Shown here piece by piece: positions 30,062 to 37,735 of a stretch of DNA of 64,000 nt. Every line of letters starts with the position of its first letter. The first letter of the stretch is position 1. The position numbers and the translations under genes are program-made. Under the pieces are notes generated by a model, which was not told the origin of the DNA, ran no database searches, and saw nothing but the letters and a program-made list of their open reading frames with translations. This DNA is from Shouchella miscanthi (lineage in GTDB: Bacteria > Bacillota > Bacilli > Bacillales > Bacillaceae_D). The stretch spans positions 2,108,001-2,172,000 of the forward strand of contig NZ_CP042163.1 of NCBI RefSeq assembly GCF_007725405.1. Direction: 5' to 3'.

Positions 30062-33000
30062 TTACGTAATACGGTGCACAGACCAAATGGTTCCAGCAGG
30101 TACAAAAGTACCGATGCTTAAATTAATAGTCAAACCACTTGAAACATAAAACACCCCTAGGACATCACCTGCATTGAGTTGAACGTCTGTAACAAGCGTG
30201 ACTTCACCACTCCCCAATATAACTCGGAGTGTCAATAATAGTAATATGTTTACATCAAGTATAGGAATTAGTCCTGTAGTGATAGTTGTTGGATTTGGCG
30301 AGATTCTTTGAATGGTAAAAGACGGATTAACTCCTGTTCCTATCTGAGCGGCTAATGCAGCCGTTGTTCGGTAATTAATGATTGACTTAATCGAATACCT
30401 ACCAGTAGCAGGAACTGTATAATTTCCTGTTACCGGATCAAATCCCGTACCTGTATAGAATGGACTATCTGTCGTCCATGCTGTAAGTTGACCAGAAGCA
30501 CTTATTGTTGCCGAGCTTTTCACAGCAGAAAAACCGAACAATGAAACATTTGGACCAGTAGCCCCAGTAACACCGGTGGCTCCAGTAGGACCTGTAGTAC
30601 CAGTGGCCCCAGTAACCCCGGTAACGCCAGTAACCCCGGTAACGCCAGTAGCGCCAGTAACCCCCGTAGCACCAGTAGGTCCAGTTGCTCCAGTGACTCC
30701 AGTAGCTCCGGTAATGCCAGTGGCCCCAGTAACGCCAGTAACCCCGGTAGCACCTGTAATGCCAGTAACTCCTGTGGCTCCAGTAACACCGGTAACACCC
30801 GTAGATCCAGTGGCTCCGGTAACTCCTGTAGCCCCAGTAACTCCTGTAGCTCCGGTAATCCCAGTGGCACCCGTAACACCAGTAGCTCCGGTAACTCCTG
30901 TAGCCCCAGTAACTCCTGTAGCTCCGGTAATCCCAGTGGCACCCGTAACGCCAGTAGCGCCAGTAACCCCAGTGGCACCTGTAATGCCAGTAACACCAGT
31001 AGCTCCGGTAACTCCTGTAGCCCCAGTAACTCCTGTAGCTCCGGTAATCCCAGTGGCACCCGTAACGCCAGTAGCCCCAGTAACCCCAGTGGCTCCGGTA
31101 ACGCCAGTAGGACCTGTAACCCCAGTAGCTCCGGTAACTCCTGTAGCCCCAGTAACGCCAGTAGCTCCGGTAGCACCTGTAATGCCAGTAACTCCTGTGG
31201 CTCCAGTAACACCGGTAACACCCGTAGATCCAGTGGCTCCGGTAACTCCTGTGGCCCCAGTAACACCTGTAGGACCTGTAATGCCAGTAGCACCAGTAAC
31301 CCCGGTAACTCCAGTAGCCCCAGTAGGACCAGTAATGCCAGTGGCACCAGTAACCCCGGTAGCCCCAGTAGGACCAGTAATGCCAGTGGTCCCAGTAACA
31401 CCTGTAGGACCTGTAATGCCAGTAGCACCAGTAACCCCGGTAGCCCCAGTAGGACCAGTAGCTCCAGTAACACCGGTGGCTCCAGTAACACCCGTAACTC
31501 CAGTAGCACCAGTAATCCCAGTAACACCGGTGGCTCCAGTAACACCCGTAACTCCAGTAGCTCCAGTAATCCCAGTAACACCGGTGGCTCCAGTAACACC
31601 CGTAGCTCCAGTAGCGCCAGTAACCCCTGTAGCTCCGGTAACTCCAGTAGCCCCAGTAGGACCTGTAGGACCAGTAATTCCAGTGACACCAGTTACTCCT
31701 GTATCACCAGTAGGACCCGTAGGTCCAGTGGCTCCAGTAGGTCCTGTAACTCCTGTAGCACCAGTAATGCCAGTGGCACCAGTAACACCGGTAACTCCTG
31801 TAGCACCAGTAGGACCTGTAGGTCCAGTGACTCCAGTAGGACCAGTAGCTCCTGTGGCCCCAGTAGGACCTGTAACACCGGTAGCACCAGAAACGCCAGA
31901 AACGCCAGTAACGCCAGTAGGACCTGTAACCCCAGTAGCTCCGGTAACTCCTGTAGCCCCAGTAACTCCAGTAGCTCCGGTAATCCCAGTGGCACCGGTA
32001 ACTCCTGTGGCTCCAGTGACTCCAGTGGCTCCGGTAACTCCAGTAACTCCAGTAGCCCCAGTAGGTCCAGTAACACCGGTAACTCCAGTAGCTCCGGTAA
32101 CCCCAGTAGCACCTGTAGATCCAGTAATACCAGTAGGACCTGTAGCCCCAGTGACACCGGTAACTCCAGTAACACCAGTAACACCGGTAACTCCTGTAGC
32201 TCCAGTAATGCCAGTAGCTCCGGTAATCCCAGTGGCACCCGTAACGCCAGTAGCCCCAGTGGCTCCGGTAACTCCAGTAACACCTGTAACTCCTGTTACT
32301 CCAGTAACCCCAGTGACACCGGTAGCACCAGTAACCCCTGTAGATCCCGTAACTCCAGTAGGACCTGTAACCCCAGTAGCACCTGTAACTCCTGTAGCCC
32401 CAGTAACTCCAGTAGCTCCGGTAATCCCAGTGGCACCTGTAATGCCAGTAACACCAGTAGGACCTGTAGGTCCAGTGGCTCCGGTAACTCCTGTTACTCC
32501 AGTAGCCCCAGTAACACCGGTAACGCCAGTAGCGCCAGTAGCCCCAGTGGCTCCGGTAACGCCAGTAGGACCTGTAACCCCAGTAGCTCCGGTAATCCCA
32601 GTGGCTCCGGTAACGCCAGTAGCCCCAGTGGCTCCGGTAACGCCAGTAGGACCTGTAACCCCAGTAGCTCCGGTAATCCCAGTGGCACCCGTAACGCCAG
32701 TAGCGCCAGTAGCTCCAGTAGGACCTGTAGGTCCAGTGGCTCCGGTAACTCCTGTTACTCCAGTAGCTCCGGTAATCCCAGTGGCTCCGGTAACACCAGT
32801 AGCCCCAGTAGCACCTGTAATGCCAGTGGACCCAGTAACACCTGTAGCCCCAGTAACTCCAGTAGCTCCGGTAATCCCAGTGGCACCCGTAACACCAGTA
32901 GGACCAGTAGGTCCAGTAACCCCGGTAGCACCTGTAGATCCTGTAATGCCAGTAGGTCCTGTAACACCTGTAGCCCCAGTAACGCCAGTAGGACCAGTAA

Positions 33001-36000: not shown

Positions 36001-37735
36001 CAGTGGCTCCGGTAACGCCAGTAGGACCTGTAACCCCAGTAGCTCCGGTAATCCCAGTGGCTCCGGTAACGCCAGTAGCCCCAGTGGCTCCGGTAACGCC
36101 AGTAGGACCTGTAACCCCAGTAGCTCCGGTAATCCCAGTGGCACCCGTAACGCCAGTAGCGCCAGTAGCTCCAGTAGGACCTGTAGGTCCAGTGGCTCCG
36201 GTAACTCCTGTTACTCCAGTAGCTCCGGTAATCCCAGTGGCTCCGGTAACGCCAGTAGCCCCAGTGGCTCCGGTAACGCCAGTAGGACCTGTAACCCCAG
36301 TAGCTCCGGTAACGCCTGTAGCCCCAGTAACTCCAGTAGCTCCGGTAATCCCAGTGGCACCCGTAACACCAGTAGGACCAGTAGGTCCAGTAACACCGGT
36401 AGCACCTGTAGATCCTGTAATGCCAGTAGGTCCTGTAACACCTGTAGCCCCAGTAACGCCAGTAGGACCAGTAACGCCAGTGGCTCCAGTGGTACCAGTA
36501 ACCCCGGTAGCCCCAGTAACACCAGTTGCTCCAGTGACTCCGGTAACTCCTGTAACACCAGTAGCCCCAGTAATGCCAGTGGCTCCGGTAACTCCAGTAG
36601 GTCCAGTAACCCCCGTAGGTCCAGTGGCTCCAGTAGCACCAGTAACCCCGGTAACTCCTGTAACCCCAGTAACTCCTGTAACCCCAGTAGCCCCAGTAAT
36701 GCCAGTGGCTCCGGTAACTCCAGTAGGTCCAGTGACTCCTGTGGACCCAGTAACGCCAGTAACTCCTGTGACACCAGTAGTACCTGTAATGCCAGTGGCT
36801 CCGGTAACGCCAGTAGGACCTGTAACCCCAGTAGCTCCGGTAACTCCTGTAGCCCCAGTAACTCCAGTAGCTCCGGTAATCCCAGTGGCACCGGTAACTC
36901 CTGTGGCTCCAGTGGCTCCGGTAACTCCAGTAACTCCAGTAACTCCAGTAGCCCCAGTAACGCCAGTAGCTCCGGTAATCCCAGTGGCTCCGGTAACGCC
37001 AGTAGCCCCAGTAGGTCCAGTAACACCGGTAACTCCAGTAGCTCCGGTAACCCCAGTAGCACCTGTAGATCCAGTAATACCAGTAGGACCTGTAGCCCCA
37101 GTGACACCGGTAACTCCTGTAACACCTGTAGCCCCAGTAACGCCAGTAGGACCAGTAACGCCAGTGGCTCCAGTGGTACCAGTAACCCCGGTAGCCCCAG
37201 TAACACCAGTTGCTCCAGTGACTCCGGTAACTCCTGTAACCCCAGTAGCCCCAGTAATGCCAGTGGCTCCGGTAACTCCAGTAGGTCCAGTAACCCCCGT
37301 AGGTCCAGTGGCTCCAGTAGCACCAGTAACCCCGGTAACTCCTGTAACCCCAGTAACTCCTGTAACCCCAGTAGCCCCAGTAATGCCAGTGGCACCGGTA
37401 ACTCCAGTAGGTCCAGTGACTCCTGTGGCCCCAGTAACGCCAGTAACTCCTGTGACACCAGTAGTACCTGTAATGCCAGTGGCTCCTGTAGCCCCAGTAA
37501 CGCCAGTAACTCCTGTGACACCAGTAGTACCTGTAATGCCAGTGGCTCCTGTAGCCCCAGTAGGACCAGTAACCCCAGTAACACCAGTGACTCCAGTGGC
37601 ACCAGTAACTCCAGTCGCATCGTTACAATACCTACAATAGGTGCTGAATAAAGATCCTCCATTGGTTGCTGTTCTATTAAATTGGGCAATGCTTGAATTT
37701 ATACAATAGTTAGATTTAGATATTCTTCTCATCAT
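30062..37735 (-). CDS. Giant collagen-like (Gly-X-Thr) BclA-type surface protein
   Basis: This 2557-residue protein has three parts. Residues 1-41 are a short N-terminus with Cys11, Cys34 and Cys37 and no classical signal peptide. Residues 42 to about 2395 are roughly 780 Gly-X-Thr triplets, where X is mostly Val, Ala, Pro or Ile; rare exceptions are GVS and GVA triplets and one glycine replaced by Asp. Residues 2396-2557 form a globular beta-rich domain ([11 protein letters not shown] to IWSVHRIT) like the trimerising C1q/TNF-like domain of BclA. The layout fits a spore exosporium filament glycoprotein with O-glycosylated threonines. The -10-like CATATAAAA about 30 bp upstream could be a mother-cell sigma-K promoter. 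BclA proteins are usually several-fold shorter. Confidence 0.85.
32180..33640. repeat. Internal duplication of the collagen gene, copy 1
   Basis: This segment of about 1.46 kb is nearly identical to 35636-37100 at an offset of 3456 bp, well beyond what the triplet code requires. The copies share the same choice of synonymous codons. The right ends differ by small block shuffles near 33430 and 33620. Confidence 0.75.
35636..37100. repeat. Internal duplication of the collagen gene, copy 2
   Basis: Matches 32180-33640 (offset 3456 bp, a multiple of 9 and 27). It contains the Gly-to-Asp change at 35819-35821 that copy 1 lacks. A sub-block is seen a third time at about 37120-37470 (also at 32960 and 36440). 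Confidence 0.75.

Follow-up and report, generated by a model that had tools for sequence, protein, structure and literature searches.

The minus strand of the window, meaning the whole 64,000-nucleotide stretch of DNA that was analysed, carries a real and extremely long Gly-X-Thr collagen-like gene. Its giant size is real, yet the protein is most likely of the known Bcl kind, and we put the probability that it is a Bcl-type collagen-like spore-surface fibre at roughly 0.7. The host, an alkaliphilic soil bacterium, belongs to the genus Shouchella, the assembly is one contig of 4.25 Mb (genome G000), and the 2557-residue open reading frame begins with ATG and contains neither an N nor an internal stop. 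The features of this locus are:

30062..37735 (-), collagen-like gene, 2557 residues, taken from the open reading frame list and with its frame kept in a second genome of the same species (G002)
37736..37800 (-), upstream region holding the block CCTTTTTTTCCTACATATAAAAATA common with S. oshimensis; possible mother-cell -10, without an exact sigma-K match
upstream of the ATG of the collagen-like gene (-), the CATATAAAA block
37613..37735 (-), N-terminus, 41 residues, with the leader motif at residues 16-27 and CRYC at 34-37
30548..37612 (-), triplet array, 785 units
35819..35821 (-), Asp codon 639 (DPT), the sole break in the Gly register
35631..37117 (-), internal duplication, copy 1 (gene nucleotides 619-2105)
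32175..33643 (-), internal duplication, copy 2 (gene nucleotides 4093-5561)
30065..30547 (-), C-terminal domain (CTD, P0001), 161 residues, predicted C1q/BclA_C-like head
29971..30012 (-), probable intrinsic terminator, a bulged stem-loop followed by a U run (strand folding: -21 kcal/mol, z -6.0)

An earlier note on this DNA had given the coordinates, strand and length of the gene exactly, and the CxxC motif that it placed in the 41-residue N-terminus is present as C34-R-Y-C37; the C-terminal domain, for which it gave 162 residues, is counted here at 161. Downstream of the gene a simple pattern scanner with a loop limit of 8 returned no terminator. Genes for sugar transport, a regulator and a dehydrogenase function lie closest to it, and none of the nine neighbouring genes scanned is a spore or glycosylation gene. 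A plasmid search gave a single distant match.

The N-terminal motif links the gene to a larger set. It follows a consensus near IQxFxRTxxNGG, in which F and R are fixed across ten aligned sequences, and a profile of this leader gave 35 matches at E<=0.01, spread over 6 of the 13 genus genomes. Each of the 35 stands at the start of a collagen-like open reading frame, some with BclA- or BclB-type heads; the profile was built from ten hand-chosen genes, six of them from this genome, so matches to profile members (including the window gene itself, G000:C1:2145643-2145708, E 5.7e-9) are not independent, and many of the 25 matches outside the profile are orthologues of its members. This genome holds seven further leader-bearing collagen-like genes, eight in all with different heads, and the dominance that the earlier note foresaw for this fibre would have to be weighed against these seven. 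Six of the others were scanned, and their heads exceeded the cut-off for TIGR03721 in three cases and for BclA_C (PF18573) in one. The leader is unmatched in two genus genomes that have the CTD (G003 and G008). It had no significant match (best E 0.59) in 27 CTD loci, comprising 16 named loci, ten order/class samples and the genus member G003, several of whose N-termini lie beyond the contig end.

This leader differs from the known exosporium leader, and its presence on a set of collagen-like genes of the genus suggests that it may act as an anchor. The canonical leader model TIGR03720 stayed below its cut-off throughout the genome; its best score, 13.9 bits where 23 are required, belongs to a 26-residue frame elsewhere. 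The CotZ family PF10612, of which we take ExsY to be a member, had no match in the genome at E<=1, while the control search was positive in B. subtilis. The spore-surface fibre proposed in the earlier note stands as the best supported reading in its Bcl-type form, although a recognised exosporium leader was not found.

The C-terminal domain appears weakly C1q/BclA_C-like. Neither it nor the N-terminus matched any Pfam family, no CTD family cut-off was reached by the window domain, and TIGR03721 (BclB-related) was not among its matches at E<=1. Among 19 scanned members of the CTD family, weak matches were found to C1q in eight (best E 0.00065) and to BclA_C in eight (best E 0.0076), as well as to the unrelated families PPC (5/19) and Pertactin (3/19). 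The CTD alignment combines P0001 with 18 of 19 collected loci, L019 being left out because its C-terminus runs differently. A profile comparison aligned one 14-residue stretch to a BclA_C-type set with E 0.0023 and a probability of 12%. The same stretch aligned to the EMILIN-1 C1q chain, very weakly and not as the top match. For the earlier description of this domain as BclA-like there are weak matches in relatives, and the domain itself matches no Pfam family. As a separate observation, Epx, MoaD and fucose-lectin chains rank above EMILIN-1 C1q for the domain or its profile; these matches are partial or weak and were taken as chance, as was the NCBIfam Epx assignment of the domain (E 0.0039, 16.5 bits, cut-off 400).

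Promoter sequences may point to the mother cell for the leader genes as a group. As a whole this family is enriched for mother-cell-type -10 sequences: CATANNNT[AG] occurs upstream of 12/27 leader genes and of 1/22 control intergenic regions (Fisher p 0.0025), a figure that orthologous regions inflate and that comes from one of four patterns tried. The 35 leader genes contributed 27 upstream regions to this count, the seven of G002 and that of L102 being left out, with starts picked by a script; for L044 and L048 the first codons of the frame were used, their starts being unclear. The full CATANNNTA lies upstream of 4/27 leader genes, a number reached in 36 of 300 shuffles, and so shows no clear enrichment. 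For the sigma-K-dependent expression that the earlier note proposed to check, the enrichment lies in the family; the window gene itself has no CATANNNT[AG] site within 150 nucleotides upstream.

These data bear on whether the protein could instead be a collagen-like adhesin, secreted or on the surface of vegetative cells, comparable to streptococcal Scl or Legionella Lcl and with a role in biofilm or attachment. We consider this unlikely. NCBIfam calls the array SclB/Lcl/SclA, far over the cut-off, but these matches stem from the repeat only, and we rejected the Scl/Lcl identity that the model names suggest for the full protein as repeat-driven. The LPXTG motif stated in the SclA and SclB model names was not found in the protein, the 41-residue N-terminus does not, on inspection by eye, look like a signal peptide, this leader also stands on genes with BclA- and BclB-type C-terminal domains, and mother-cell-type -10 sites are enriched in the leader family.

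The array itself spans residues 42-2396 and consists of 785 triplets, 784 of them led by Gly. Position Y is occupied by Thr in 780, Ser in three, and Ala and Asn in one each, while position X is more varied (Val 319, Ala 275, Pro 88, Ile 69, Ser 21, Thr 9, others 4). Asp 639 divides the array into Gly-led stretches of 199 and 585 units, and looks like a recent point change because Gly stands at the corresponding codon of the other copy of the duplication. The earlier estimate of about 780 triplets with Thr at Y holds, except that the array falls one codon short of being uninterrupted. A triple helix of several hundred nanometres, also foreseen there, would follow, reaching up to ~670 nm if the whole array is triple-helical.

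With Pro at X in only 88 of 785 triplets, a triple helix without glycosylation may be unstable; Gly-X-Thr helices are stabilised by glycosylation. It has to be considered, then, that the array forms a non-collagen fold, such as a polyproline-II bundle, or stays flexible, since Val, Ile and Ala dominate X, with Val and Ile together in 388/785. We regard this as improbable: the strict Gly register speaks for a triple helix, as does the head, which is probably trimeric, and the Gly-X-Thr array of B. megaterium, whose X is mostly Ile or Ala, is credited in the excerpts of PMC4674009 used here with fibres of predicted collagen length.

A further alternative is that the protein belongs to an endospore appendage, as its tip fibrillum or its anchor, rather than being a hair of the nap. 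In the parts of PMC11952670 drawn on here, F-BclA, the tip fibrillum of F-ENA, has an IILPH docking motif and a 701-residue stalk, and the window protein would share its plan of a short N-terminal docking peptide, a long collagen stalk and a C1q-like head. In contrast to the F-BclA/F-ENA system, this genome has no match over the cut-off for DUF4183, the F-ENA subunit (best 13.3 bits against 25.1), and the leader is common to eight genes with different heads. We therefore think this role very unlikely.

Codon usage shows that the array is maintained as protein. At the Gly codon, bases 1 and 2 read GG in 784/785 units, while the third is A, T, G or C in 300, 209, 181 and 95, and the third bases of the Thr codons are likewise spread; the third positions of both are free to vary, and therefore selection acts on the protein sequence. 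The array has no sense TTA, CTA or TCA codon, which is why its antisense frame is free of stops, and we dismissed the antisense frame of 2354 codons at 30576-37640 (+) as a by-product of composition. The two copies of the largest internal duplication share long exact repeats at offsets of 3474 and 3456, and differ by ~15 mismatches and an 18-nucleotide change of offset over ~1.47 kb; this divergence of ~1% argues against a false copy.

Comparison with G002, the second single-contig genome of this species, shows that the ends of the gene are fixed and the array fluid. The G002 copy has 2068 residues in an intact frame, with an identical CTD and an N-terminus equal at 40 of 41 residues. Its array has 163 fewer triplets and is largely rearranged, while the flanks are 99.6-99.8% identical; the arrays align with 83% identity and 39 gaps, and the gene ends are 99.7% identical. 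The 1467-nucleotide difference in gene length cannot be put down to a single duplication, as the differences are spread over the 39 gaps. Import from another genus array compared was also ruled out, because such arrays have <=0.2% of 30-mers in common with those of G000 and G002, against 33-44% between G000 and G002. Recombination is the probable cause of these changes.

The homologues of the C-terminal domain that the earlier note proposed to search for were found in other Bacilli, and in all relatives with readable arrays the domain lies behind Gly-X-Y repeats. Relatives with the same domain reach 2622 and 2632 codons, and several others exceed 2000; these lengths run from stop to stop, and many of the short ones end at a contig edge. 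Run lengths of relatives follow a stricter pattern, which breaks at Gly-Gly, than the window count, so comparisons of longest runs are inexact. Within the genus, stalks on this domain range from 27 triplets (G005) to 785. The frame is kept in S. xiaoxiensis, G005 and G003, whose copies are unbroken; in the S. oshimensis record two N gaps interrupt the gene, the frame changes, and the frame in which it starts contains two stops. The G008 gene ends at a contig edge. Since long arrays recur on this domain in other Bacilli, the size tops a range and is not unique; the gene is "one of the longest", as had been claimed, but its length is not exceptional within the CTD family.

An assembly error, or the expansion of a repeat not under selection, is hardly credible as the source of the length. 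A block of ~1.47 kb does have a near-duplicate, and the lengths of the genes in the two genomes of this species lie about this far apart; yet the copies are ~1% different with the frame kept and third positions drifting freely, long arrays occur in the separate assemblies of relatives, and the G000/G002 differences do not form one block.

For the Bcl-type fibre we propose the following working. The protein would be made in the mother cell late in sporulation, presumably under sigma-K-type control. The 161-residue CTD would trimerise as a C1q-like head and so nucleate the triple helix, and the 785 triplets would coil into a rod no longer than ~670 nm, in which Thr at Y, probably O-glycosylated, would offset the low proline content. 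The leader would dock the rod on the spore surface with the head outwards. In-frame recombination between repeats could remodel the array quickly, so that fibre length and surface pattern would vary by strain while leader and head stay fixed. More tentatively, at slightly less than even odds, the gene may belong to a spore-surface display system peculiar to part of the genus Shouchella, in which this leader replaces the known leader and CotZ-type layer and docks a set of collagen-like proteins with different heads (eight genes here). One of these would be the present fibre, at most ~670 nm long, with a stalk that changes between near-identical strains and a leader and head that do not.

The leader is a testable candidate anchor peptide in a spore-forming genus that includes the probiotic S. 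clausii. The natural series of stalk lengths on one head in one genus suits a test of how stalk length sets hair length. The gene also raises the question of what keeps so long a rod helical when only 11% of its X positions are Pro; Thr glycosylation is the likely answer.

Collagen-like spore proteins of Shouchella were absent from the literature matches listed, the excerpts of the S. clausii spore paper (PMC11817855) contained nothing on hairs or exosporium, and literature searches on a record length and on Gly-Pro-Thr glycosylation contributed nothing to this account. The same CTD occurs in uncharacterised proteins of Paenibacillus, Brevibacillus, Alkalihalobacillus and a Bacillus sp., with domains 52-65% identical to that of the window gene and readable N-termini that differ from its own. 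As in BclA1-3 of Clostridioides difficile, conserved ends flank a highly variable collagen region (PMC13188886, in excerpt), but the C. difficile regions are shorter, at 354-422 residues, and for Bcl proteins a range of 27-1,158 residues is given, of which the stalk here is ~2x (both from excerpts of PMC8968730). Like the exosporium glycoproteins BclA (PF18573) and BclB (TIGR03721) found in the B. cereus group, the protein combines an N-terminal leader, a collagen stalk with Thr at Y and a C-terminal head, and heads of the PF18573 or TIGR03721 type occur on other leader genes here; unlike BclA and BclB, its leader is not TIGR03720 and its CTD falls below the family cut-offs. A close parallel is BclA1 of B. 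megaterium QM B1551, which in the excerpts of PMC4674009 has 220 Gly-X-Thr repeats, forms polar nap fibres of the ~190 nm predicted, is targeted to the forespore by an N-terminus without a known leader, and yielded no null mutant to its authors. Both proteins have Gly-X-Thr repeats and an N-terminus without a known exosporium motif, but BclA1 is plasmid-borne whereas the gene here lies on the 4.25-Mb contig, and against its 220 triplets and 159-residue N-terminus the window protein has 785 and 41 (PMC4674009).

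The collagen-like gene is read from the minus strand as a single frame:

30062-37735, minus strand, collagen-like ORF of 2557 residues

The protein begins with a 41-residue N-terminus, continues through an array of 785 triplet units spanning residues 42-2396 and ends in a C-terminal domain (CTD) of 161 residues. Glycine is first in 784 of the 785 units and threonine takes the Y position in 780, while Val (319) and Ala (275) dominate the X position and Pro is found in just 88 of 785. The single broken unit carries Asp in place of Gly at residue 639, and the longest runs are 301 units of strict G-X-T (X not Gly) and 585 Gly-led units. 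The earlier note described a giant uninterrupted Gly-X-Thr gene of about 780 triplets with a 162-residue BclA-like C-terminus, a description that holds overall apart from the break at Asp-639 and one residue in the length of the CTD. As a full triple helix the array would be approximately 674 nm long, computed from the triple-helix rise of 0.286 nm per residue. A similar figure of 0.28 nm per residue is implied by 701 residues and 196 nm in an excerpt of a published study (PMC11952670).

The Gly codons hold GG in 784 of 785 units yet their third base varies (A/T/G/C = 300/209/181/95), and the Thr codons of the array vary in the same way; the ORF is therefore coding and under selection. A 2354-codon antisense ORF reading (Pro-Val-x)n (30576-37640, plus strand) is a by-product of composition and not a gene, its frame remaining open because the array lacks all three sense codons that would give stops there.

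Scanning genome contigs with the CTD gave 19 loci from Shouchella, Alkalihalobacillus, Paenibacillus, Brevibacillus and Bacillus-named records, and the domain was found in seven of the 13 Shouchella genomes, in 18 of 299 from the order and in 38 of 398 from the class, with partial overlap between these samples. The CTD is 93% identical to its counterpart in S. oshimensis DSM 18940, consistent with the host genus, Shouchella. Stop-to-stop lengths of the CTD genes range from less than 200 codons, where ORFs are often cut by contig ends, up to 2622 and 2632 codons; the window ORF has 2560, followed by 2389, 2364, 2222, 2187, 2071, 2017 and 2002. As relatives reach 2622 codons (779 units) and 2632 codons (709 units, much interrupted), and all ten long relatives fetched contain Gly-X-Y arrays, the window gene is at the top of a length range approached by several lineages. 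The S. oshimensis orthologue spans 8.5 kb with two gaps, giving 786 + 84 G-X-T matches in two frames. A partial second CTD copy of 58 residues lies approximately 1.7 kb upstream of the full copy in another Shouchella genome (G003:C5:73094-75493, locus L054), and the only plasmid match is a 'collagen-like protein', its CTD 37% identical, encoded on a Cupriavidus basilensis conjugative plasmid (NZ_CP062809.1, 58282-58716).

The array varies far more between strains than the sequence around it. G002, a same-species single-contig genome, has flanks that match those of the window gene at 99.56% identity over 6.4 kb (including the CTD), 99.68% over 8.0 kb and 99.80% over 14.4 kb; its CTD protein shows no differences, and one of the 41 N-terminal residues is changed. 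The G002 array is 163 triplets shorter and aligns at 83% identity with 39 gaps, and the two genes share 33% of 30-mers in the array versus 97% in the CTD. All 24 exact matches of at least 80 nt between the two genes are shifted by a multiple of nine, and the same is true within each gene for the 40 longest self-repeats listed. The window gene contains two near-copies of a block of about 1.47 kb, at gene nt 619-2105 and 4093-5561, which are about 99% identical; the Asp-639 break is confined to the first copy. Length differs in all six orthologous collagen-gene pairs compared, and in each of them array identity (0.80-0.94) is lower than that of the rest of the gene (0.93-0.997).

The N-termini of many Shouchella collagen-like genes share a leader motif near IQxFxRTxxNGG, in which F and R are invariant across the ten aligned N-termini used to build a profile; the window gene carries its own form of this motif. 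In the window's genome, a single contig of 4.25 Mb, the profile has eight matches at E<=1e-5, and these coincide with the eight ORFs whose collagen-repeat match exceeds the Pfam cut-off; the ninth-best match (E 0.36) is in a 63-codon frame with an internal stop. Across 13 genus genomes it finds 35 places in six genomes at E<=0.01, every one followed by a Gly-X-Y array (8 in the window's genome, 7 in G002, 6 in G004, 5 in G005, 4 in G009 and 5 in G012). The leader was not found in the other seven, of which G003 and G008 have the CTD, the G008 gene being cut at a contig end. Nor did 27 further loci (26 sampled outside the genus, several lacking the N-terminus) give a significant match, the best having E 0.59. 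Not all collagen-repeat ORFs carry the leader; two of them in G002 are without a match:

G002:C1:3084042 (L074), 163 codons
G002:C1:3094293 (L075), 1330 codons

Another G002 gene, a collagen-like one of 1502 codons (L072:648-5156), matches BclA_C weakly and has a weaker leader (SNYQRF; E 1.4e-4); the collagen matches of the window's genome showed no evident counterpart to it. Two adjacent collagen-like genes of the window's genome (G000:C1:1674136-1676568; L045:1637-2893 and 3365-4069; 418 and 234 codons) have near-identical leaders and similar heads, differ mainly in array length and are likely a tandem pair. Another leader gene of this strain (L048) takes Gln (46) and Arg (20) besides Thr (100) at Y; it goes with L070 and L095, the three having 821, 758 and 1031 codons respectively. 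In L044:592-3927 and L045:11083-12834, repeated modules of about 45 residues (VYDPALAPGYAVGQLVSFEGSLYVV...) lie between collagen segments and by eye look like small carbohydrate-binding modules.

Upstream of the leader genes we searched for CATANNNT[AG], a form of the mother-cell -10. It occurs within 150 nt in 12 of 27 leader genes (shuffle mean 3.2, 0/300 reaching 12), whereas only one of the window's 22 intergenic control regions has it (p 0.0025); this count and those that follow are partly dependent, as orthologues are among the genes. The looser CATANNNT occurs in 19 of 27 (shuffle mean 6.2, 0/300) versus 7 of 22 controls (p 0.010), and a site with AC 14-18 nt before it in 4 of 27 (shuffle mean 0.6, 1/300). 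The full CATANNNTA showed no clear enrichment (4 of 27, shuffle mean 2.0, 36/300 reaching 4). The window gene itself has only CATAACTTT at -72, absent from S. oshimensis, and shares with that species a CATATAAAAATA block that begins 32 nt upstream of the ATG. Downstream of the gene is a probable terminator, so the gene is likely transcribed alone; the closest neighbours scanned encode sugar PTS parts, permeases, regulators and one dehydrogenase. Homologous DNA lies on both flanks of the S. oshimensis orthologue, and was not found in the stretches covered on either side of the copies in S. xiaoxiensis, G005 and JCM 19041.

The window CTD alone matched no Pfam family. Among its 19 relatives, eight gave weak C1q matches and eight weak BclA_C matches, and profile comparison with a BclA_C-type set aligned a C1q-like stretch (E 0.0023, probability 12%), so that the sequence points to a likely C1q-like trimeric head. 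Leader genes differ in their heads: among six others scanned in the window's genome, three exceed the TIGR03721 cut-off, one that of PF18573, and the remaining two have weaker head matches. Neither the TIGR03720 exosporium leader nor the CotZ family (PF10612) was found in this genome.

A Bcl-type spore-surface fibre is the best explanation for the product of the window gene. It is not BclA by strict membership, because the known leader is absent and the head falls below cut-off. The protein very likely works like BclA1 of B. megaterium, whose 220 GXT repeats match fibres of about 190 nm and whose null mutant could not be made, according to an excerpt of that work (PMC4674009). The gene also resembles C. 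difficile BclA in that its ends are conserved and the collagen region between them is variable, for which slippage or unequal recombination is suggested in an excerpt of PMC13188886. The new elements are the leader common to Shouchella collagen-like genes and the degree to which the stalk is rewritten between near-identical strains; in size the window gene is a very large member of a kind already known.
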